Positions 21,292 through 32,910 of a DNA stretch of 64,000 nt are shown in pieces. The notes below the pieces were generated by a model, which had not been told where the DNA came from, did not search any database, and was given only the letters and a program-made list of their open reading frames with translations. Source of the DNA: Thiothrix fructosivorans (lineage in GTDB: Bacteria > Pseudomonadota > Gammaproteobacteria > Thiotrichales > Thiotrichaceae). Location: assembly GCF_017349355.1 (NCBI RefSeq), contig NZ_JAFMPM010000006.1:620001-684000 (forward strand), given 5' to 3'. The position numbers were made by a program, and so were the translations under genes. Numbering within the stretch: the first letter of the stretch is position 1; each line of letters begins with the position of its first letter.

Positions 21292-22931
21292 GTAACTGAA
21301 CAGTCCCCCCTTACCCAAACGCACTAAATTTGCGACACTCCCCCGATGACCCAACAACTGAAAGACCACAGCCTCAAACAGCTTAACAGCCAGTACCTTG
21401 CCAAGCTCACGCCGGAGGAACTGCTGCACCTGTCGACCAAGTTGTTGCATGACCTGAAAGAAGCGCGGGAACAGATCAACCAAAACTCCAACAACTCCTC
21501 CAAACCACCCAGCAGCGGTTTCCCGTGGGAAACGTCACCCAAAACGGTGGCTTTGCCCGAAACAGAAGGGGTGGGTGCAGCCAGAGGAAAGCCAACCCCG
21601 GAACCAGAAGCTGTGGCGGGCACAAAGCCAGCCCAACCAGCCAAACGCAAAGCGGGTAAACAACCCGGCGCACCGGGTTATGGTCGGGTATGGCATCCGC
21701 CCATCAATGCAGACGAACACCATTACCCCAGCCGATGTGAAGCCTGTGGCAGGTCCCTGGATGCGGCTGTCTCCCGTATTTATACCGCCTATGACAGTGT
21801 GGACATCCAGTTTGGCACGGATGGGAACCCCGGACTGACCGTCATCACCACCCGCCACCACCTTCACGATAGCGTATGCACCTGCGGTCATGTGAGCCGC
21901 CATATCCCGCATCGCCAAGCTCCCGACCCGTTATACCCGGAGGTTGATGTGGGCGAGTGGCGGCTGATTGGGGGCAATCTGGCGGCACTTATTGTCCACC
22001 TACGGCTGCGCTCACGCTTGTCACTGCGTGGCACACAAGAACTGTTGCGGGAGGTGTTGGGCATTCCCCTAAGTGTCGGGGTGTTGCAGCAATGTTTTGA
22101 GGAAGCAGCCGCGAGTGCTTCTCCATTGGAAGATGCCTTGGTGGAAGGGCTGTTGGCAGAAGCCACCGCTGACGGCGGGGTGCTGTATATTGATGAAACC
22201 TCTTGGAAAGAGCGTGGCGAAGCCCTGTGGCTATGGACATTCGTCACCACCCTCAGCGTTTGTTTCTACGTAGGGCAGCGCACCATTGAAATGCTCGACA
22301 ACGTGATTAGCCCCCACTTTGGGGGCTGGCTGATGAGTGATGGCTATGCCGCTTACCGCCACCACCCCAAACGCTTGCGTTGCTGGGCGCACCTGATCCG
22401 CAAAGCCCGTGGGCTGGCAGAATCACTGGACAAAGACGGGCGGACGTTTGGCAACTTCACCCTCGCTTGGCTGAGGGTATTACAGGACGACATTTACGCT
22501 TGGCGGGCAGCAGGCGGCACGGTGGGGACGCAAACCGACGTGATCCGTCAACGCCATCAGGCAAAACTCCTGGAATTCAGGGCATTATGCTTGATCCATG
22601 CCGTATCTGCCCATGACAAGACGGCGGCACTGGCGAAAGAGTTCATCAATGATTGGGATGCCATTTTCCGAATCCTTGACCACCCGTGGCTTCCCTTGAC
22701 CAATAATGAGGCTGAGCGGGCGTTGCGCCATTGGGTGATCCTGCGCAAAACCAACCATGGCACAAAGAGTGCTACGGGGAGCCGTGCGTTTGCCATGCTG
22801 GCCAGCATCATCGGTACTTGCCGCAAACGTGGACAGTCTGCCTTGGCTTATCTTGCCAGTGTTATTACCGCTGCCCGCGCTGGCTTTGCCCTGCCCGCTT
22901 TACCGCAAGGGGTGGGGATGTGATCAATTAC
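21292..22931 (+). mobile_element. IS66-family insertion sequence, copy A
   Basis: 1640 bp with terminal repeats GTAACTGAAC / GTAATTGATC (8 of 10 matching), flanked by a perfect 8-bp duplication GGCTGAAG (21284-21291 and 22932-22939), the size made by IS66 elements. It carries only the DDE transposase and no tnpA/tnpB accessory genes, as in the ISBst12-like subgroup. Boundaries were set by comparing three copies in this window. It truncates the STAND gene on the minus strand. Confidence 0.95.
21346..22923 (+). CDS. IS66-family transposase (copy A)
   Basis: 525 residues. An N-terminal leucine-rich helix with NSNNSSKPPSS is followed by a Lys/Pro linker with KQPGAPG and a zinc-ribbon-like CEACG...CTCGH region. 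The DDE catalytic domain has YIDETSW, LMSDGYAAY and the NNEAERALR block at about 450, as in DDE_Tnp_IS66. The translated protein is the same as those of the other two copies, so transposition is recent. Intact and presumably active. Confidence 0.95.
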   Translation: MTQQLKDHSLKQLNSQYLAKLTPEELLHLSTKLLHDLKEAREQINQNSNNSSKPPSSGFPWETSPKTVALPETEGVGAARGKPTPEPEAVAGTKPAQPAKRKAGKQPGAPGYGRVWHPPINADEHHYPSRCEACGRSLDAAVSRIYTAYDSVDIQFGTDGNPGLTVITTRHHLHDSVCTCGHVSRHIPHRQAPDPLYPEVDVGEWRLIGGNLAALIVHLRLRSRLSLRGTQELLREVLGIPLSVGVLQQCFEEAAASASPLEDALVEGLLAEATADGGVLYIDETSWKERGEALWLWTFVTTLSVCFYVGQRTIEMLDNVISPHFGGWLMSDGYAAYRHHPKRLRCWAHLIRKARGLAESLDKDGRTFGNFTLAWLRVLQDDIYAWRAAGGTVGTQTDVIRQRHQAKLLEFRALCLIHAVSAHDKTAALAKEFINDWDAIFRILDHPWLPLTNNEAERALRHWVILRKTNHGTKSATGSRAFAMLASIIGTCRKRGQSALAYLASVITAARAGFALPALPQGVGM

Positions 22932-24238
22932 GGCTGAAGAGGCTCAATATAATTACAGGGCTGATTTTCATCGACAGCAGTAGCCTGATGGCAGGGGTAG
23001 ATACCGTGTAGCAAATCTATGATTGCCCGTCGTTCGTGGTATTTGCTTTCCATTAAAAGCGGGATATTACTCAAAATTCGTTCGGCACTTTGTTTGTCGG
23101 GTACGCCACCGATCAGTGTTATTTTCGCCATCGCTGTCCCAATGGCTTTGTGGAGACTTTTGGGCAGCATCTGCTCGTAAGCCTGTCTCTCCCAAAAGTG
23201 CCGTTCACGGTTTAGGATGACCTCTAAAATGCTTTGGAGTCCTTGACTGGCTTGCTTACCATCAACATTGATCAATGCCTGCATATGCAATAATAAGACA
23301 CGCTCAAAATGTTCGGCTTGAATATCCGCAGGCATGTCTAGTGCAGGATCACATTGCAAACGTTGGGCAAAGTGTTTTGATGCAAGCAGGAAGGATTCCT
23401 CCCGATCCCTCAGCCTCAAAAATAATGGGCGCAACACGATCCAAGAGGTCGCTTGCCCCATCAGTAAGTCACCGACACTTTGCCCCGCTTGTTTGAGGAT
23501 ACTCCACCAGTCTGCTGCTGCTCTTGCCAACAAGACCACCCGAACCTTGGTGTTTACCCGTAATGCGGCGGCGAGCAACATCAACACTTCATTTCGACGG
23601 GTTTCAGCATAGTCGATTACAATGAATGCTGGTGTTTCCAGCATTGCCAGCCAATCAAAACGTTTCTGTCCCTCTCCTTCTGTTGTGCCATGGCGTAGAA
23701 AACCGGTTGCCCAGTGGTACTGTTTTTTTAGTTGTTGGCACTGTTCACTCGCCAAGCGGGTTTTACCCATGCCGCCGGCACCCGTATAAAGTCGTACTGC
23801 CACTGGGTTATCATCCAGACACCATGTCATCAAGTCATTCAGTTCCTGTTCCCGCTGGTGGAAGGGCACAATAGCGTATTCGGCTTTTAGCAATGCGCCC
23901 GGTGGTGAATAGTGAGCATTCCATTGCAATGGAGTGGGATAGATGAGTTCCGGGAAGATGGGAGGCAGTAACGCTTCATAATTACTCAAACCTAAAAATT
24001 CTGCCAATGTCATGGCCTTGTTTTTATCCAGTTTGATGCCATTCCAAGCATTCTTAGGCGTCGTTGGTTCTGTTGTAATGTCAGAAGGTTGAGCGATATG
24101 ACGTATAAACTCCCTTTCAAACGCAGGCAAGCCCTTCATTCCACGGCTTGCTGCGAGCTGCCTTACTTTCAGAGCATCCAGTGTGACACTGCGTTCACGT
24201 TTACGGACACTTGCCTTAGCCGTTGTATCAGGCATCAT
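22928..24238 (-). CDS. STAND-type ATPase truncated by IS66
   Basis: 436 residues now, 459 before insertion. The N-terminus (about 1-95) is basic and ends with an HTH-like AMTLAEFLGLSNYEALLP. A P-loop GAGGMGKT (153-160) and Walker B FIVIDYAE (205-212) follow. Later blocks (LNRERHFWE, LIGG, LHGIYP, IEPLQP) match a family of STAND proteins that usually continue into TPRs; here the TPRs are on the separate upstream gene, overlapping by 4 bp. The stop is CCG-TAA, where TAA comes from the IS end. Loss of the 23-residue tail may or may not abolish function. Role unknown, conflict or signalling plausible. Confidence 0.8.
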   Translation of the reverse strand: MMPDTTAKASVRKRERSVTLDALKVRQLAASRGMKGLPAFEREFIRHIAQPSDITTEPTTPKNAWNGIKLDKNKAMTLAEFLGLSNYEALLPPIFPELIYPTPLQWNAHYSPPGALLKAEYAIVPFHQREQELNDLMTWCLDDNPVAVRLYTGAGGMGKTRLASEQCQQLKKQYHWATGFLRHGTTEGEGQKRFDWLAMLETPAFIVIDYAETRRNEVLMLLAAALRVNTKVRVVLLARAAADWWSILKQAGQSVGDLLMGQATSWIVLRPLFLRLRDREESFLLASKHFAQRLQCDPALDMPADIQAEHFERVLLLHMQALINVDGKQASQGLQSILEVILNRERHFWERQAYEQMLPKSLHKAIGTAMAKITLIGGVPDKQSAERILSNIPLLMESKYHERRAIIDLLHGIYPCHQATAVDENQPCNYIEPLQP

Positions 24239-26499
24239 CTCTCTCCGGTTCTGTGAACAAAGTTTGATTCCATCACTGCCAACTGTTGAGACAATTCAGC
24301 AATCTCAGCCGTATTATCCATATTACCCAGTACCTCCCTTAATCTTTTTGCCGTTTGCAGAAAATTCGGATCATCCGCCTCAAACTGAGCCTTGCACAAA
24401 GTCTGCAACATCAGCAATAAATCATCATAACCTTCTTCTGTTTCCTCAATAATTTGCCATTGCCATGATAATGCCTGCTGTAAACTGCTGATAGCCAAAT
24501 CGGCTTGCCCACAAGCGTGAGCCATACTCCCCCGGTTAAGCAAAGCCAATGCCTGATTGGTACGCATGTTCAAGGTTAAAGGTTCTGGCAACTCACCATA
24601 GAGTTTGACAGCTTGATTGGCACTATGCAGTGCTTGTGTGGTGGATTCGCTGGCTTGCAAAAATCCCAAATTAGTCCATGCATCAGCAAGATCAATTTTA
24701 TAGGCAGGTACTTCATCAAGCGGTAATGCTTCCAACAGTGCAATGGCTTTTTGTGCTGCTAGGATGGCTTCAGCATTACGTCCGATCCGGTTTAATAGGG
24801 TAGACTGGAGATTAAGCAGATCTGCCATACGTTGCCCGTCAATCTGTGCATATTGCTGGGCATGGGCAATGATTTTATCGGCCCAATTCAAGGCAATATC
24901 GTATTGTTCTGACTCAATCAAGGATGAAAGGCGCACTTTGGCAACTTGGTGGTAGGCTGGTGGGTGTGCTTCTTTCAGATAAGCGGGACTACTATCCCAA
25001 TAAGCAAGTGCTTCATCTGCACTGGCTAACGCTGCCGGATAATTTTCCAGTTGCTCATAAATCGCCGCCAATGTACCTAAAGTAACCGCTAAATCAGTGT
25101 GGAAGACATCATCGTTTATTGTTAGACGGCGGTAGAGGCGAATACAGGTAGTGATACTCCTTTGCGCTCTGAAAATGTCACCACTTTGCATTCTGGCGTT
25201 GCTTAAGGTATTTAATGCCATTGCTACATTGGCAGTATTGCCGGGTAGGTTACGGTAAAGGCATAGTGTGCGGTGGGCATCACGGATTGCTTCATCGTGA
25301 CGGAACAAGGCCAGATAAACTTCGATGCGGTTATTCAAGGTAGCCGCTAGATTTGTGGTGAAACGGGCGGGAAATTGCCTGAAAAGGGGTTCTAGTATGG
25401 CTACGGCTTGATCCATTTTTTGTTGGGCAGCATCTAGCTTCCCAATAGTCAGATCTACAATCCCCATATTACTCAACAAATTACTATAATGGCTGGCAAA
25501 TGCATGGGGGCGATACTGATAAAGCTTGGTGAGTTCATTAAGGGCTTCGGTGGAGGCAGCTTCAGCCGCTTCCTGATTTCCTAAACGGCCTTCCAGCATC
25601 GCGAGGGTTTCCAGTGTATCAATATGTTCAAGTCCATATCTGTCCTTAGCATGGTTTGACAAATCACGGATAATGATCAAGTTATCGCGTAGCAGGTCAG
25701 TAGCTATATCAAGCTGGTCTATCTGCTCATAACACCCAGCCAAATTGTGTAAAATGCGGTGTTGGAGATAGATGTGTTCCATGGATGGGTTAGCAATTTG
25801 CTTGATGAAATAGTCTGCTTTAGCACCTGCATCAATGGCCTCACTGATGCGTTCCTGCATCTTGTAATAAGAGCTCAGCACTAATAAAACGTTGGCATAT
25901 TGAGCAATATGTCCGGCGGGATCAGTTTCGTACAATAATCGGTAGCCTGTGGTCACTTCCTGTTGTACCAACAGGGCATCCTCCATCTGTCCAACGTGCA
26001 TCAGGCATTCTGAAAGGCCGAACAGACTTTGCAAAAATTGGGTATCCAGTACGTCCATACCATTACGTTGGTATAAACAGGCGCTCTCAAACGCGTGGGC
26101 TAAGGCTGTTGAACGTTCGCCTATATCTGCTAAAGCGGCAGCATAAGTGCCAGTTGTTTCCGCGATTAATGCCCAATCATCGGGGTGCTTTGCTTTTGCC
26201 AGTTCCGCCGCCCGTTTGGCAATGACTGTATGAACTTCACGTAGAGAAATCGTATTGGCAGGCAGCGATTCGTAAAGTTCCAATAGCAAATCATCGTTGG
26301 GGGAGTTGGTTAGGTACTCCGCTATGATTTGTCCAATGGGATCGCCTGTTTCCTGAGCGACCGCTAATGCAGGTAACAGGCACGAATCACCGTATTTTCC
26401 AAAGAATAAGCGTAAATAGGCGACATTATCCGAGTTGGTTTCACAAATGCGCGTAAGCCTAGTGAGGGCAGTTGTTAATTCATGGTGCAAGCTTTTCAC
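24235..26499 (-). CDS. Large tetratricopeptide-repeat protein
   Basis: 754 residues, nearly all alpha-helical TPR-like pairs (for example AECLMHVGQMEDALLVQQE-like units and ALASADEALAYWDSSP, AILAAQKAIALLEALP). No signal peptide or membrane segment, so cytosolic. The first 100 residues are not clearly TPR. Translationally coupled (ATGA overlap) to the STAND ATPase gene, suggesting that the two proteins form one split sensor-ATPase unit, with the TPR solenoid as the ligand- or partner-binding part. A strong palindrome lies 45 bp before the start. No effector enzyme is encoded beside them. Confidence 0.75.
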   Translation of the reverse strand: MKSLHHELTTALTRLTRICETNSDNVAYLRLFFGKYGDSCLLPALAVAQETGDPIGQIIAEYLTNSPNDDLLLELYESLPANTISLREVHTVIAKRAAELAKAKHPDDWALIAETTGTYAAALADIGERSTALAHAFESACLYQRNGMDVLDTQFLQSLFGLSECLMHVGQMEDALLVQQEVTTGYRLLYETDPAGHIAQYANVLLVLSSYYKMQERISEAIDAGAKADYFIKQIANPSMEHIYLQHRILHNLAGCYEQIDQLDIATDLLRDNLIIIRDLSNHAKDRYGLEHIDTLETLAMLEGRLGNQEAAEAASTEALNELTKLYQYRPHAFASHYSNLLSNMGIVDLTIGKLDAAQQKMDQAVAILEPLFRQFPARFTTNLAATLNNRIEVYLALFRHDEAIRDAHRTLCLYRNLPGNTANVAMALNTLSNARMQSGDIFRAQRSITTCIRLYRRLTINDDVFHTDLAVTLGTLAAIYEQLENYPAALASADEALAYWDSSPAYLKEAHPPAYHQVAKVRLSSLIESEQYDIALNWADKIIAHAQQYAQIDGQRMADLLNLQSTLLNRIGRNAEAILAAQKAIALLEALPLDEVPAYKIDLADAWTNLGFLQASESTTQALHSANQAVKLYGELPEPLTLNMRTNQALALLNRGSMAHACGQADLAISSLQQALSWQWQIIEETEEGYDDLLLMLQTLCKAQFEADDPNFLQTAKRLREVLGNMDNTAEIAELSQQLAVMESNFVHRTGER

Positions 26500-26825: not shown

Positions 26826-27059
26826 CTATTTCGATGCAGCATCGGTTGTTGGATTATTCGCGGCACTTATTAACATACCAGCCAGTCCAATCGCCATAAT
26901 AATTCCACCTAGTCCATCCATCATTTTTGAAGGTGGTTCTAGATTAGTCGTAGTGGTACTGCTACCATCTTTCCCTGTTGTTACTACAGCTTGAGTGCTG
27001 CACCCATAATTACAGACCATCATTGAAAGAATGATAGCAGTTGAAATAAATTTTTTCAT
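26826..27059 (-). CDS. Small lipoprotein with a hydrophobic helix
   Basis: 77 residues. Signal peptide with lipobox NYGCS (acylated Cys20). The mature part has a Thr/Ser-rich stretch (TTGKDGSSTTTTN) and a hydrophobic helix (MDGLGGIIMAIGLAGMLISAANN). It resembles small entry-exclusion or lysis-type lipoproteins only in general architecture; no family assigned. Ribosome site GAGATG. The region is notably AT-rich, unlike the housekeeping genes. Confidence 0.6.
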   Translation of the reverse strand: MKKFISTAIILSMMVCNYGCSTQAVVTTGKDGSSTTTTNLEPPSKMMDGLGGIIMAIGLAGMLISAANNPTTDAASK

Positions 27060-27169: not shown

Positions 27170-27580
27170 TTAAGGTTTGTAGTACCCAATAATTTTAAGT
27201 TCTGCGGCTGCCTTCTCTATCGTTGTAGAACTTGCCCGACGTTCAGTCTTTTTGCCTTTAGTAAAATTGGTCTCTGTAATTCTAATTGCACCCGTATCAG
27301 CAGAATGGCATCCTTCTACTACAGCAACATGACCATGGACATCAAAACTAGTGCTATCAATAATAGCTACCGAACCTGCTGAACAGGTCTGGTTATTTAT
27401 AATTTTCTTTTTACTTGCCCAGTCAGTTAATCCAGTAGGCAATGAAGGTACGCGACCTCTTGCATAAGCAACACACTGACTAGCATCATTTCCAAGAACT
27501 TTTGTGGTAATTTCAGCTTCAACAGTTGTTGCAGTAAGCAATGCGGGAATAATAAGATATAGCGATTTCACGAGTTTCAT
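27170..27580 (-). CDS. Secreted CHAP-domain (NlpC/P60-like) hydrolase
   Basis: 136 residues from the ATG at 27580 (27586 also possible), which places a signal peptide first (cleavage after VEA, residue 22). The compact CHAP fold has the nucleophile C36 in QCVAYARGRVPSL and H84 in VHGHVAVVEG, preceded by SAGSVAIID. CHAP enzymes cut peptidoglycan amide or peptide bonds; a single small domain like this could be an amidase or a secreted effector. It lies upstream of two small lipoproteins on the same strand, about 110 bp away. Confidence 0.75.
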   Translation of the reverse strand: MKLVKSLYLIIPALLTATTVEAEITTKVLGNDASQCVAYARGRVPSLPTGLTDWASKKKIINNQTCSAGSVAIIDSTSFDVHGHVAVVEGCHSADTGAIRITETNFTKGKKTERRASSTTIEKAAAELKIIGYYKP

Positions 27581-27646
27581 TATCATCACTTTAAAAATTA
27601 ATTTAGCCAAACAATATTCATTTAAATACTTGATTATTAATAACAT

Positions 27647-27863: not shown

Positions 27864-28640
27864 CTACTTTAACTGATCGAGAATATTCAATAACCCAACA
27901 AGGTACAGCAACTTGTCTTTGGTTATTTTGCCCAGTCTGTTACGCATTCCGTCCAGTATGTTGGTGGCGTAGAAGTAGCTGATGTCCGTTGAGTCTTGGA
28001 TATTCTTGAATGGCTTGCCTGAGGCAAGGTAACGGAGCACGACGATCTCTTTAGACTTCAGGCTGGCGAGCAGGGGAAGAATGAATTTGTGCGGGAGACT
28101 GGCATCCGCAAAGTTAATGTCATGGAACAGTTTGGTGCAATGGATCAGTGTATCCAGGCGTTCCTGTTTGAGTACCTGAAAGGCATGATCTTTTTCTGAA
28201 CTGACAATACTCGCTCCGGCTGCACCACGTTCATCGAACATGGTTGGGATGGAGATAGCGTTGATGATGCCGTAATCTTCCCGGGCAAGCTGGATCAGGT
28301 GCTTTTCATCTGGGTTGAGTTGGGCTTGTGTCTCATGCTCTCGCCAGTCCATTGGCTGGATATCGCCTCCCAAAACCTTTCTAACGGTGAAATCCTGTTG
28401 ATCCAGTCGCTCGGCTTCATAATGTTGTAGAAATTCTGTCGAATAAGTCGCCGTATGGAGAAAAATGGCAGGTATATCTGTGAATGCTTCCCACTGAGCG
28501 CGAGCGGCGAAAGTGTAGGTTGCTCCTTCAAACCCCAGCAATTGCAGGTATTTTTCATAAATCTGAAAACGCTCTTCAAGCGTGTTGGTAGCATATAGTT
28601 CTGCGATATAGTTGCCTAAAAGGGCATGATCAACACTCAT
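27864..28640 (-). CDS. LuxR-type regulator with autoinducer-binding-like domain
   Basis: 258 residues from the ATG at 28640, which has GAGAG at the ribosome-site position. Residues about 20-175 look like an autoinducer-binding domain: Y74 and D83 in HYEAERLDQQDF and W99 in PMDWRE match the ligand-contact positions of LuxR/TraR by eye. The C-terminal 60 residues form a LuxR-like HTH (LKSKEIVVLRYLASGKPFKNIQDSTDI), less canonical than usual in the recognition helix. Downstream in one direction of an acyl-synthase-like gene and a methyltransferase gene, suggesting a self-contained signalling circuit. Confidence 0.75.
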   Translation of the reverse strand: MSVDHALLGNYIAELYATNTLEERFQIYEKYLQLLGFEGATYTFAARAQWEAFTDIPAIFLHTATYSTEFLQHYEAERLDQQDFTVRKVLGGDIQPMDWREHETQAQLNPDEKHLIQLAREDYGIINAISIPTMFDERGAAGASIVSSEKDHAFQVLKQERLDTLIHCTKLFHDINFADASLPHKFILPLLASLKSKEIVVLRYLASGKPFKNIQDSTDISYFYATNILDGMRNRLGKITKDKLLYLVGLLNILDQLK

Positions 28641-28662
28641 GAATGACACTCTCGCGTATGGG

Positions 28663-28685
28663 AAAAGGGCGGCAGGATTCCTGCC
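28663..28685 (-). terminator. Terminator-like hairpin between the methyltransferase and LuxR-type genes
   Basis: GGCAGG-ATT-CCTGCC (28671-28685) is followed on the minus strand by GCCCTTTT. A weak intrinsic terminator or attenuator that could lower luxR-type expression relative to the synthase. Confidence 0.35.
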
Positions 28686-28716
28686 TACCGCCACACTACA
28701 TCAAGTTAGGTTGTGG

Positions 28717-29397
28717 TTAACCGTTCTTACGTAACACCAAAAAATTTAGCCCTCCCCGAAAGTGCCGTTGATGACATTCTTCGACGCGAAAGCCTAGCTG
28801 TTGAACTTGACTGACTAGATCACCCATGCTGATGAAGTGGGCTTGGGGGTTTGTTGCCAGTTTCAAGTTATAAGCCTTGTAAGCTTCAAAATCAGGGTGT
28901 GCCAGCAGTTCTTTCCAAGCATCCCGTGCCAGTTCCGCCAGTTCCAATTTCCTGTTGGGGGTAGCCAACACAAAAACTGCGCCGGGGGCTAATATCGTGA
29001 AAACATGTGTCAGCACTGCCACGGGATCAGACCATGAGTAATAGCTTTGAATGGAAACCCCTGAGGTAAATTGTCGGTTATCCACATCCTCTATTTTGCC
29101 ATGGCGAATAGTGAAAGCAGGGCATTGCAGGTTGTTTAGAATCCAACGAGCCATTGATACCATTTCTTCAGCATAATCCACCCCTGTATAAGACACTACC
29201 CGCTCTTCATCTAGTAACAATGGGGCAATCTTTGCACTACCACAACCGCAGTCTATTACATCCCCTGATAAATGCAAACAGGCTTCACGATAGACTTCCA
29301 ATTGCATGGAAGTAGTGACGGATGCAAATAATCGGGCATAGTTATCCCATTCTTGCATGAGATAAGGTGGTTGGTTGGTTAATGTCGGTGTGTTCAT
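28717..29397 (-). CDS. Class I SAM-dependent methyltransferase in the signalling cluster
   Basis: 226 residues from the ATG at 29397, preceded by GGGGGAG. Motif I is DVIDCGCGSAKIAP, followed by YTGVDYAEEMVSMAR (acidic end of strand 2) and an LAPGAVFVLATPN motif, all typical of small-molecule methyltransferases. The substrate cannot be told. It lies 2 bp after the FeeM-like gene, so the two enzymes are tightly coupled, and a natural guess is that it modifies the acylated product. Confidence 0.8.
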   Translation of the reverse strand: MNTPTLTNQPPYLMQEWDNYARLFASVTTSMQLEVYREACLHLSGDVIDCGCGSAKIAPLLLDEERVVSYTGVDYAEEMVSMARWILNNLQCPAFTIRHGKIEDVDNRQFTSGVSIQSYYSWSDPVAVLTHVFTILAPGAVFVLATPNRKLELAELARDAWKELLAHPDFEAYKAYNLKLATNPQAHFISMGDLVSQVQQLGFRVEECHQRHFRGGLNFLVLRKNG

Positions 29398-29399
29398 AT

Positions 29400-29981
29400 T
29401 CAAATCTCCCCCCAAAATTTGAGGAATGTTGGAATAACTTTCTGTACACGGCATTCCAGCAAGGAAAAGCGGTAACCTGTCCCATAGGTGAAGCCAATGT
29501 CATCCAGCAAGATGTTGGCCCCGGCTGTTTTTTGATACAGGCTGACGTTCTTGTCACGGATGATGAAGATCAGCGAATCAATCCCATACCCTGCTGCAAT
29601 CTCATAGTAGGTGTAAAAATAGGCAGGCAAGATGCCGCGAGCCTCACGGGTAATGGTAAACTTGCTGGATTCAGCGACTACCAATCCCTGTTGGCGCAAT
29701 TTGTCGATTGCTGGCTTGACGATCTCATCGGCCGGAAGCCCAAATGGACCATCAAACGCAATCCGCCCGGTGCTGGTCAATTCTCCCGCCTGATTTTGGC
29801 TATACAACACACAAGCTGTGCCATCATAAGCATCATCCTTAAAATGCGTGACACCCGGATAAAGTTTGCTGTACTCCGCTTCTCTGAGTTTCCATACTGC
29901 CTTGAATTCTGCCTCAGTAGTGGCGATTTTCAGGCGTTCTGGCACTTGCGAAAGTGCCAGTTCTGTCATCATTACTTGCAT
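29400..29981 (-). CDS. FeeM/LuxI-like GNAT-fold acyl synthase
   Basis: 193 residues with a strong ribosome site (AAGGAGA). The sequence pattern LKIATTEAEFKAVWKLREAEYSKLYPG...STGRIAFDGPFGLPADEIVKP, followed by VAESSKFTITREARG, resembles N-acyl amino acid synthases of the FeeM type, structural relatives of LuxI autoinducer synthases. These transfer an acyl chain from acyl-ACP to an amine. Assignment is by visual family resemblance and needs profile confirmation. First gene of synthase, methyltransferase, LuxR-type receptor, all on the minus strand. Confidence 0.6.
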   Translation of the reverse strand: MQVMMTELALSQVPERLKIATTEAEFKAVWKLREAEYSKLYPGVTHFKDDAYDGTACVLYSQNQAGELTSTGRIAFDGPFGLPADEIVKPAIDKLRQQGLVVAESSKFTITREARGILPAYFYTYYEIAAGYGIDSLIFIIRDKNVSLYQKTAGANILLDDIGFTYGTGYRFSLLECRVQKVIPTFLKFWGEI

Positions 29982-30009
29982 CTGGATCTCCTTGAACTAG
30001 TAGGTGATC

Positions 30010-30021
30010 CCAAGCGCTTGG
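30010..30021. promoter_or_regulatory. Palindrome CCAAGCGCTTGG upstream of the acyl-synthase operon
   Basis: A perfect 12-bp palindrome 29 bp before the synthase start. A second palindrome, TTTCTAGAAA, lies at 30058-30067, and TGCATA/TATGCA half-sites lie between. One of these could be the binding site of the LuxR-type protein; none matches a canonical lux box closely. Confidence 0.4.
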
Positions 30022-30132
30022 TCTCTGTTTCATTGCATATGCTGGGGTCAGTATGCATTTCTAGAAACGGTCTGTGAGGACAGATAAGCAGTCGTTAAGT
30101 CAGATAAGAAGAAAGATCATAGACATGGTGCA

Positions 30133-30315
30133 TCAGACATAAGGGATAATATGCCTGATGGTAATCGGAATGTTGGTGGGAATTTTATGTAGGAAAATAG
30201 TAATAACTGCCAACACAAGGAGACGGGTTTCCACGGGGTAACGTAATCCACGGGTGGCGGGCTTGCCGTGGCAAATGCTGAGGTCGATGGTGATACGACG
30301 GTTGTGTGCATTCAT
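30133..30315 (-). pseudogene. Truncated DUF433 antitoxin gene
   Basis: The first 30 or so codons (MNAHNRRITIDLSICHGKPATRGLRYPVET) and the upstream sequence to about 30350 closely match the intact DUF433 gene at 32677-32910. After RYPVET the reading frame runs into unrelated sequence and ends early. A decayed partial duplicate. The rest of 29982-30384 holds the promoter region of the acyl-synthase operon and nothing else recognisable. Confidence 0.75.
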
Positions 30316-30384: not shown

Positions 30385-30480
30385 TTGACTTCCTCCCCTC
30401 CCTAAAGGAAGGGGATTCCTAATTCATCGAGAACCGGACGAATACACCGAAATGCACGCGCCACTGACATTCTCTCCAAA
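30385..30480 (-). ncRNA. Candidate omega RNA of the TnpB element
   Basis: TnpB guide RNAs overlap the end of tnpB and run through the right end. Here the 3' scaffold hairpin is at 30395-30414, and the element ends at 30385. The adjacent flank would supply the guide; read on the minus strand it begins TTTAGTGCTATGCGTATGAG. The 5' limit is a guess. Confidence 0.35.
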
Positions 30481-31575
30481 GGCTAACACCGCCAGTCCGG
30501 CGGCTAAAATATTGCGGGCAGCGTTTACGTCACGGTCGTGGATTGCCTTGCATTCAGGGCATTCCCAGACACGTACTGCCAATAGCAAACGATCAACTAC
30601 ACATCCACAACCACTGCACCGCTTACTGGAAGGGAAGAACCTGCCGATTTCGACATATGTTCTTCCCGCCCAGCTTGCTTTGTATGCGAGTTGGCGGGTG
30701 AATTCCCCCCAACTTGCATCGGCAATGTGCTTGGCTAATGTTGGATTCTTAATCATGTTCTTCACGGCGAGGTTTTCGGCGCAAACCACTTGGTTCTCGT
30801 TAATCAGTTTGCGGGACAGCTTGTGCAAGTTGTCCGAACGGCAATCGGCGATTTTCGCGTGAATACGGGCAACCTTGCGTTTGGCTTTCAGCCGGTTCTT
30901 GCTGCCGAGTTTCTTCTTGGCAAGACGACGTTGGTATTTCGCCAGTTTAGCCGCGTATTCTGCGGTATGGCGGGGATTGCCGGATTTAAAACCGTCAGAA
31001 GTGACGAACAAATCCTTAATACCCACATCAATGCCCACCTTTTTATCGGTAACGGGCAACAACGTGGAGTCGAATTCACACAGGCAAGACACGAAGTAGC
31101 GCCCTGCATGATCTTTGGAAACGGTGATGGTGGTTGGGTCAGACGGAAGCGGCTGACTCAATTTAATCGCCAATGGCTGAGCACACTTCGCCAGCTTCAA
31201 TTCACCGTTCTTAAAGGTAAACGCGCGGTAAGTGAATTCGGCTGATTGGCGGTGCTTTTTGGATTTAAAGATGGGATATTTCGCACGACCTTCAAAGAAG
31301 TTTTTGAACGCGGTTTGCTGATTTCGCAAGCATTGTTGCAGCGGGACACTAGAAACATCGTTTAGAAACAGGGACTCAGGCAGTTTTTTGATGGCAGTCA
31401 ATCGAGCGTTTGCGCCCATGTAACCAATTTTTTCTTGAGTCTGATCATAAGCATCCGTGCGGTAACGCAAAATGCTGTTGTACACGTAGCGCACACAACC
31501 AAAGGTTTGTGCCAGCAATTTTTCTTGTTGCTGGTCGGGATAAAACCTGAACTTGTAGGCGCGTTTCGTTTGCAT
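30424..31575 (-). CDS. tnpB: TnpB RNA-guided nuclease (IS605 OrfB)
   Basis: 383 residues, complete. The N-terminal HTH/OrfB domain opens with KRAYKFRFYPDQQQEKLL. The RuvC-like nuclease triad is D183 (VGIDVGIKDL), E267 (VVCAENLAVKNM) and D349 (HDRDVNAARNIL). A zinc ribbon uses C320/C323 and C339/C342. TnpB proteins cut DNA guided by omega RNA next to a TAM and help retain the transposon. The triad is intact, so activity is plausible. Confidence 0.93.
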   Translation of the reverse strand: MQTKRAYKFRFYPDQQQEKLLAQTFGCVRYVYNSILRYRTDAYDQTQEKIGYMGANARLTAIKKLPESLFLNDVSSVPLQQCLRNQQTAFKNFFEGRAKYPIFKSKKHRQSAEFTYRAFTFKNGELKLAKCAQPLAIKLSQPLPSDPTTITVSKDHAGRYFVSCLCEFDSTLLPVTDKKVGIDVGIKDLFVTSDGFKSGNPRHTAEYAAKLAKYQRRLAKKKLGSKNRLKAKRKVARIHAKIADCRSDNLHKLSRKLINENQVVCAENLAVKNMIKNPTLAKHIADASWGEFTRQLAYKASWAGRTYVEIGRFFPSSKRCSGCGCVVDRLLLAVRVWECPECKAIHDRDVNAARNILAAGLAVLAFGENVSGACISVYSSGSR

Positions 31576-32326: not shown

Positions 32327-32680
32327 CTACGCATGAACGATCAAGCTATCCCTCGTCAGTTCGATGAAACGCGCGTCCGCAAAAGCCGCCTCGATTTTCC
32401 CCAGGTTGTTCAGGAATAAGGTTTTCAGCTCATCGTTGTGGATGTTGCCTGTTGATACCAACAGCAACTTCCACGGCTGATCTTTTAACCAGAATGAATC
32501 CACGAAATCAGCATCTTTGGTGACAACAATTCGCTCTTCTGCAAGCGAAAGGTCGTTGATGAACTGATCAGTCGTTCGATTTGCTTGCGGTAAGCCCAAG
32601 GTATGGCGCGTATCGTAACCTGCGTCCTTAAGCTGGATTGCCAACTTGCGTGGCAAATGTGCATCGACCAGAAACTTCAT
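32327..32680 (-). CDS. DUF5615 PIN-like toxin
   Basis: 117 residues. The Mut7-C/PIN-like fold shows acidic residues at DAHLPRKLA, TDQFINDLSLAEERIVVTKDADF, the pattern of DUF5615 toxins. The start overlaps the DUF433 stop by 4 bp, the standard antitoxin-toxin arrangement. Predicted RNase activity is from family knowledge. Confidence 0.85.
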   Translation of the reverse strand: MKFLVDAHLPRKLAIQLKDAGYDTRHTLGLPQANRTTDQFINDLSLAEERIVVTKDADFVDSFWLKDQPWKLLLVSTGNIHNDELKTLFLNNLGKIEAAFADARFIELTRDSLIVHA

Positions 32681-32910
32681 GCTGCCAATGCCATTTCAAT
32701 GCGCTTAACTTGGGAAAGACGGGCGGCATACGCCAGCACTGCCAGCAAATCCTCGCGTTCCAAGTCTTCGTAGTCATCCAGAATCTCATCGAGACTCATG
32801 CCCGCGCTGAATAGCTCCAACATGGTTTCCACAGGGTAACGTAACCCACGGATGGTTGGTTTGCCGTGGCAAATGCTGGGGTCTATGGTGATACGGTTGT
32901 GTGCATTCAT
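32677..32910 (-). CDS. DUF433 antitoxin
   Basis: 77 residues, intact: RITIDPSICHGKPTIRGLRYPVETMLELFSAGMSLDEILDDYEDLEREDLLAVLAYAA is the canonical DUF433 sequence (HTH-like), cognate antitoxin of DUF5615. A partial duplicate of its 5' end lies at 30133-30315. Confidence 0.9.
   Translation of the reverse strand: MNAHNRITIDPSICHGKPTIRGLRYPVETMLELFSAGMSLDEILDDYEDLEREDLLAVLAYAARLSQVKRIEMALAA

Follow-up and report, generated by a model that had tools for sequence, protein, structure and literature searches.

To our knowledge, few LuxR-type circuits use signals that are not lactones. In Ralstonia, the methyltransferase PhcB makes the methyl-ester autoinducer 3-OH PAME, which contains no amide and is sensed via a two-component system rather than by a LuxR pocket. 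The role of 3-OH PAME as a Ralstonia signal has been described (PMC13220807). The Photorhabdus receptors PluR and PauR, which sense photopyrones and dialkylresorcinols, retain the Tyr and Asp of the ligand site, carry Thr at the position of Trp57 and are served by synthases other than LuxI (PMC4414361). The N-acyl amino acid methyl esters of Roseovarius are reportedly outside acyl-homoserine lactone (AHL) signalling and have no known receptor (PMC11580390), and their synthase genes had not been found. The locus described here lies in a 64,000-nucleotide stretch of the Thiothrix fructosivorans genome, referred to as the window.

Three minus-strand genes make up the locus. The first (29400-29981) encodes a predicted FeeM-type N-acyl amino acid synthase (NAS), the second (28717-29397) a class I SAM-dependent methyltransferase of 226 amino acids (MT), and the third (27864-28640) a LuxR-type regulator of 258 amino acids with an autoinducer-binding domain and a divergent helix-turn-helix (HTH). 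The NAS stop and MT start codons form the junction TGA-AT-ATG, a spacing of 2 bp, and a 76 bp gap containing a GC-rich hairpin separates the MT stop from the LuxR-type gene; the gene order, strand and both spacings are as given in a preliminary description of this DNA. With LuxI/LuxR quorum sensing the trio shares the fold class of its acyl-transfer enzyme, a receptor of the TraR/RhlR/QscR fold and a dyad before the synthase gene, but its synthase falls outside PF00765, its methyltransferase is an additional component and its receptor motif reads F-Y-D-F-W instead of W-Y-D-P-W. Judged by these signatures, the trio is expected to work like LuxI/LuxR and, on the LuxI side, is not a member of that class. 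It differs from the Photorhabdus systems in that its synthase is of the FeeM type and is accompanied by a methyltransferase; with the PhcB system it would share a methyltransferase-made methyl ester, and the compound class predicted for it is that found in Roseovarius. We consider it probable that the trio is an autoinducer circuit whose signal is a methylated N-acyl amino acid, and the best-supported reading is that FeeM-type acylation followed by methylation takes the place of LuxI.

The synthase matched the FeeM family PF21926 with 59 bits against a gathering score of 27 (E 6.3e-16). A single-sequence search of the PDB with NAS returned noise only and a profile was required; the profile built from 22 NAS homologues and run against the whole PDB gave FeeM (2g0b, E 5.5e-7) as its sole match. 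The AlphaFold model of NAS (pLDDT 88) likewise found its best fold match in FeeM 2g0b (E 1e-11, TM 0.70-0.80), with LasI next. The earlier suggestion of a FeeM/LuxI-like GNAT acyl synthase, for which a fold comparison had been proposed, is thus borne out, and the order of the two folds places the enzyme nearer to FeeM. Because FeeM is the only PDB profile match and the best fold match and PF00765 is not matched, NAS is a FeeM-type enzyme by sequence and predicted fold, and its catalysis is predicted on that basis. It shares with FeeM the Pfam family and the conserved D..GLP.D and R..G..laE motifs at about 20% identity; unlike FeeM, NAS precedes or is fused to a methyltransferase and is paired with an autoinducer-binding regulator. 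Could the gene instead encode a divergent LuxI that makes an acyl-homoserine lactone beside an incidental methyltransferase? The superfamily fold is common to both enzymes, and LasI follows FeeM among the fold matches. Against this, PF00765 gave no match to NAS at E values up to 10, FeeM was the sole profile match in a PDB library that does contain LuxI enzymes, the receptor lacks the Trp57 and Pro71 of AHL sensors, and the methyltransferase is conserved and fused to NAS, so that we regard a LuxI identity as very improbable. A PF00765 search of the host genome found no LuxI, and the same search gave a clear match in another genome of the order, which indicates that the search works. Among 63 Thiotrichaceae-family genomes, the only clear LuxI-type synthase is L132 (G006:C75:1633-2148; PF00765 E 7.9e-32).

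The second protein, previously proposed to be a SAM methyltransferase, matched PF13489 (Methyltransf_23) with 51 bits against a cut-off of 27 (E 1.8e-13). Its subfamily contains 43 invariant columns, and its profile matched generic class I relatives only in the PDB. NAS and MT are fused into one protein beside LuxR at four loci of the family (L052, L054, L058 and L059), and a plasmid search located a further NAS-MT fusion in Pseudoalteromonas (L142), where LuxR follows about 10 bp on. These natural fusions argue that the two enzymes act together. Long open reading frames at L088 and L090 were also considered as fusions and were rejected, as tblastn places NAS in a separate gene in another frame.

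In the proposed pathway, NAS would take a fatty-acyl group from acyl carrier protein or CoA and attach it to an amino acid through the amino group, and MT would methylate either this product or its amino acid, most likely at the free carboxylate. Methylated at this site, the N-acyl amino acid would be a methyl ester that is neutral and able to diffuse, and this step would stand in for the lactonisation of LuxI products. Assignment of the signal specifically to the methyl esters is tentative, and we place it slightly below an even call. A somewhat unlikely variant of the same circuit has the methyl group on the amino-acid part (on carbon, nitrogen or a side-chain oxygen), the signal then being an acidic methylated N-acyl amino acid. 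The planctomycete stieleriacine clusters, in which N-acyl amino acid synthases are paired with a tyrosine C-methyltransferase-like gene (PMC7293339), speak for this variant, and the generic class I structures to which the MT profile is restricted are compatible with it; on the other side, one-to-one fusion with NAS is explained at least equally well if MT acts on the acylated product, and the other genes of the stieleriacine pathway did not appear next to the trio.

To establish how widely the arrangement is kept, 63 genomes of the family were searched for NAS loci, and 19 such loci were found in 16 genomes. MT adjoins NAS at 17 of the 19 (L050 and L051 are without it), and a LuxR gene lies within 3 kb of NAS at 16 of the 19, against a chance expectation of about 0.002 per locus; L056 has no adjacent LuxR. 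Receptors of this LuxR family are present in all 16 NAS-bearing genomes of the family (P 1e-5), and NAS, MT and LuxR co-diverge (r 0.76-0.86; 0 of 5000 Mantel permutations). Synthase and receptor are inherited together, as is expected of autoinducer circuits. The neighbourhood survey that the preliminary description had called for finds the three-gene unit at 16 family loci and beyond the family, fused forms included. A methyltransferase within a LuxI/LuxR-like module had been called unusual: the methyltransferase is indeed there, but within this family it is the rule and not an accident of one genome. At L045 (4973-5736), in a Thiothrix relative, the receptor gene is broken into two open reading frames while NAS and MT are intact, and this strain is possibly a signal producer without its adjacent receptor.

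Outside the family, the trio occurs in Chromatiaceae, Alteromonadales and Pseudoalteromonas. When the MT profile was scanned over 84,980 species genomes, further loci appeared in Thiorhodococcus, Thiobaca, Imhoffiella, a Nitrosomonas, a betaproteobacterium, an Alteromonadaceae metagenome-assembled genome and a marine gammaproteobacterium, with NAS upstream of MT wherever the contig extends that far. When 369 genomes of the class were sampled evenly, MT was present in only two, both of this family; no relatives were found among viral contigs and phage records. L087 and L088 were initially taken as lacking LuxR and were withdrawn as such, as a wider retrieval finds LuxR farther along the contig, at a distance of about 5-7 kb. 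A search of the open-access literature, with most subscription papers outside its range, found no description of the trio.

The third protein had been described as carrying an autoinducer-binding-like domain and an HTH. It matched PF03472 (Autoind_bind) with 52 bits against a cut-off of 23 (E 5.2e-14). The HTH is divergent and its GerE match falls below the cut-off for the window protein alone (E 0.18), and the family profile matches RhlR and TraR with their HTHs aligned. The model of the protein (pLDDT 92.5) matched the folds of QscR, SdiA and TraR. Both the domain and the predicted fold place the protein in the LuxR family. Residues Y74, D83 and W99, reported earlier as being in register, correspond to TraR Y61, D70 and W85.

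The binding site departs from that of AHL sensors, whose motif is W57-Y61-D70-P71-W85-G113. The window receptor does not have this motif; it reads F-Y-D-F-W, with Ala at the G113 position. Across 30 homologues the TraR Trp57 position is occupied by Phe in 24, Tyr in 4, Ile in 1 and Cys in 1, with Trp in none, while Tyr61 and Asp70 are invariant, Trp85 is retained in 28 and Pro71 in just 1. Tyr also stands in for Trp57 in the Pseudoalteromonas receptor. All 31 receptors inspected have another residue in place of Trp57 and retain both Tyr61 and Asp70. Trp57 contacts the lactone carbonyl and belongs to the lactone-ring region of the pocket. In published structures, W57, Y61, D70 and W85 are placed in the ligand site (PMC3821632), and D70 has been assigned to the amide (PMC4414361). 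Replacement of Trp57 with retention of Tyr61 and Asp70 fits an N-acyl ligand that has no lactone, and the simplest reading of these residues is that the ligand would be an acyl-amide of this kind. By its motif, the receptor is not an AHL sensor. The LuxR-type protein would accordingly hold the acyl-amide part of the methylated product with Tyr61, Asp70 and Trp85, and the Phe or Tyr at the Trp57 position would take the end occupied by the lactone in AHL sensors. LuxR proteins of the family without a nearby synthase also lack Trp57, so its replacement is not confined to the trio. Two further paralogues of the same receptor family (L060 and L061) are encoded in the host genome, and 19 family genomes carry this receptor family without a synthase (L062-L081), resembling solo listeners; these proteins are candidates for solo receptors that sense a signal of this kind.

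A different interpretation holds that the product of NAS and MT is a lipid with surface activity or antibiotic action and that the LuxR protein is a pathway regulator responding to another cue, with no cell-cell signal involved. Bioactivity is known for the lipids made by FeeM and for methylated N-acyl amino acids, and the compounds placed outside AHL signalling in Roseovarius include N-acyl alanine methyl esters (PMC11580390). The adjacent regulator nevertheless belongs specifically to the autoinducer-binding type. Its residues for amide recognition do not vary, and its divergence runs in parallel with that of the enzymes; moreover, few biosynthetic genes other than its own are found repeatedly next to the trio. 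On balance we judge this interpretation unlikely and retain the autoinducer circuit.

The region upstream of NAS contains the palindrome CCAAGCGCTTGG (30010-30021), a candidate LuxR operator that forms part of an imperfect 20-bp dyad (30006-30025) and stands 28 bp upstream of the NAS start codon. It occurs once in the 4.36 Mb host genome and is found at the same position in L042, L045-L048, L089 and L091, distant relatives included. Ten exact copies are present in nine genomes (33 Mb), nine of them directly before a NAS gene; about two copies would be expected at random, so the evidence resides in their position and not in their count. The tenth, which is the third exact copy in G040, lies inside a TrkA-like open reading frame and was discounted. 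Symmetric variants of the dyad, produced by paired changes, occur in L044 (CCAGTCGACTGG), L053 (CCAAGTACTTGG) and L055 (CCAAACGCGTTTGG). The symmetry continues through the centre of the palindrome, which argues for a dyad in DNA and against a loop in RNA. The dyad is missing at many trio loci, those of Chromatiaceae and Pseudoalteromonas among them, and hence cannot be a general operator. Where it is present, the LuxR-type protein may act at the CCAAGCGCTTGG dyad and thereby close a feedback loop on NAS. As the dyad stands just 28 bp from the ATG, action as a repressor site or roadblock would be equally likely as activation. A sigma-70 scan upstream of NAS gave no convincing promoter. The synthase, the tailoring enzyme, the receptor and the candidate operator all fall within about 2.2 kb.

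Directly downstream of the palindrome, a 5' UTR hairpin covers the NAS ribosome-binding site (29984-30010, minus strand), with a GGATC/GATCC stem and an inner CCU/AGG pairing. The stem covaries, being GGAATC/GATTCC in L055 and GGACTTC/GAAGTCC in L091, with differing loop lengths. The hairpin region is more stable than its shuffles over 12 loci (mean z -2.1; z -1.1 for the window alone), and L043 has no stable stem at this position. The hairpin could switch translation or act as an RNA thermometer. Just upstream of NAS, positions 30117-30315 hold a truncated copy of a DUF433-like gene at 32677-32910. By eye, the intact copy adjoins a DUF5615/PIN-like gene in an arrangement like a toxin-antitoxin pair (region 32327-32910), and an IS200/IS605-type TnpB-like open reading frame (30424-31575) stands between the NAS promoter region and these genes.

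Downstream of the trio and on the same strand are genes for a STAND-like NTPase whose N-terminal domain is HTH-like (22928-24238) and a TPR-repeat protein (24235-26499; PF13424 E 9e-21), which overlap by 4 bp. The NTPase has a Walker A motif and a weak match to nSTAND_NTPase5 below the cut-off. NACHT/Avs-type STAND defence proteins join an N-terminal effector to C-terminal sensor repeats, and here the TPR repeats reside on the separate gene; PADLOC gave no match to the pair. Homologues of the STAND protein (E < 1e-10) are present in 5 of the 63 genomes, the host included, and each has a NAS gene no more than 12 kb away, where chance would give about 0.002 each. TPR homologues stand beside STAND and the trio in L134, and the TPR protein is probably linked to the circuit. 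Between the LuxR gene and this pair are a CHAP-domain protein (27170-27646; PF05257 E 3e-8) and a small lipoprotein-like open reading frame (26826-27059), neither of which has homologues near other trios.

Similar neighbours recur at more distant loci. In Chromatiaceae, NAS-MT is followed, in divergent orientation, by a giant NACHT-WD40 protein, an HTH-like protein and LuxR, and the neighbouring NTPase carries NNH6, a phosphorylase domain, WD40 repeats and NACHT. NACHT-type genes adjoin NAS in L087-L089, L091 and L096 and lie near it in L053 and L059, against a background density in the genus of about 1 per 0.7 Mb; relatedness among some of these loci means that not all are independent cases. 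NACHT and NAS-MT genes form divergent pairs, with the palindrome between NACHT and NAS in the Nitrosomonas and the betaproteobacterium, and a 981-amino-acid P-loop NTPase follows the Pseudoalteromonas trio. The N-terminal domain of the window STAND protein recurs in Chromatiaceae, and this HTH-like domain is often shared by STAND/NACHT neighbours (22928-26499; L134, L137, L138 and L142); searches of Pfam and the PDB gave it no firm relative. The neighbours resemble the NTPases of STAND/NACHT conflict systems of multicellular bacteria, in which NACHT, NNH6, phosphorylase and WD40 domains occur (PMC7159879, PMC10907252), and these two reports make no mention of quorum sensing or acyl-signal genes with such systems. 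The targets of the circuit may include the neighbouring STAND/NACHT genes, and their recurrent link to the trio raises the testable question of whether NLR-like systems in bacteria are licensed by cell density.
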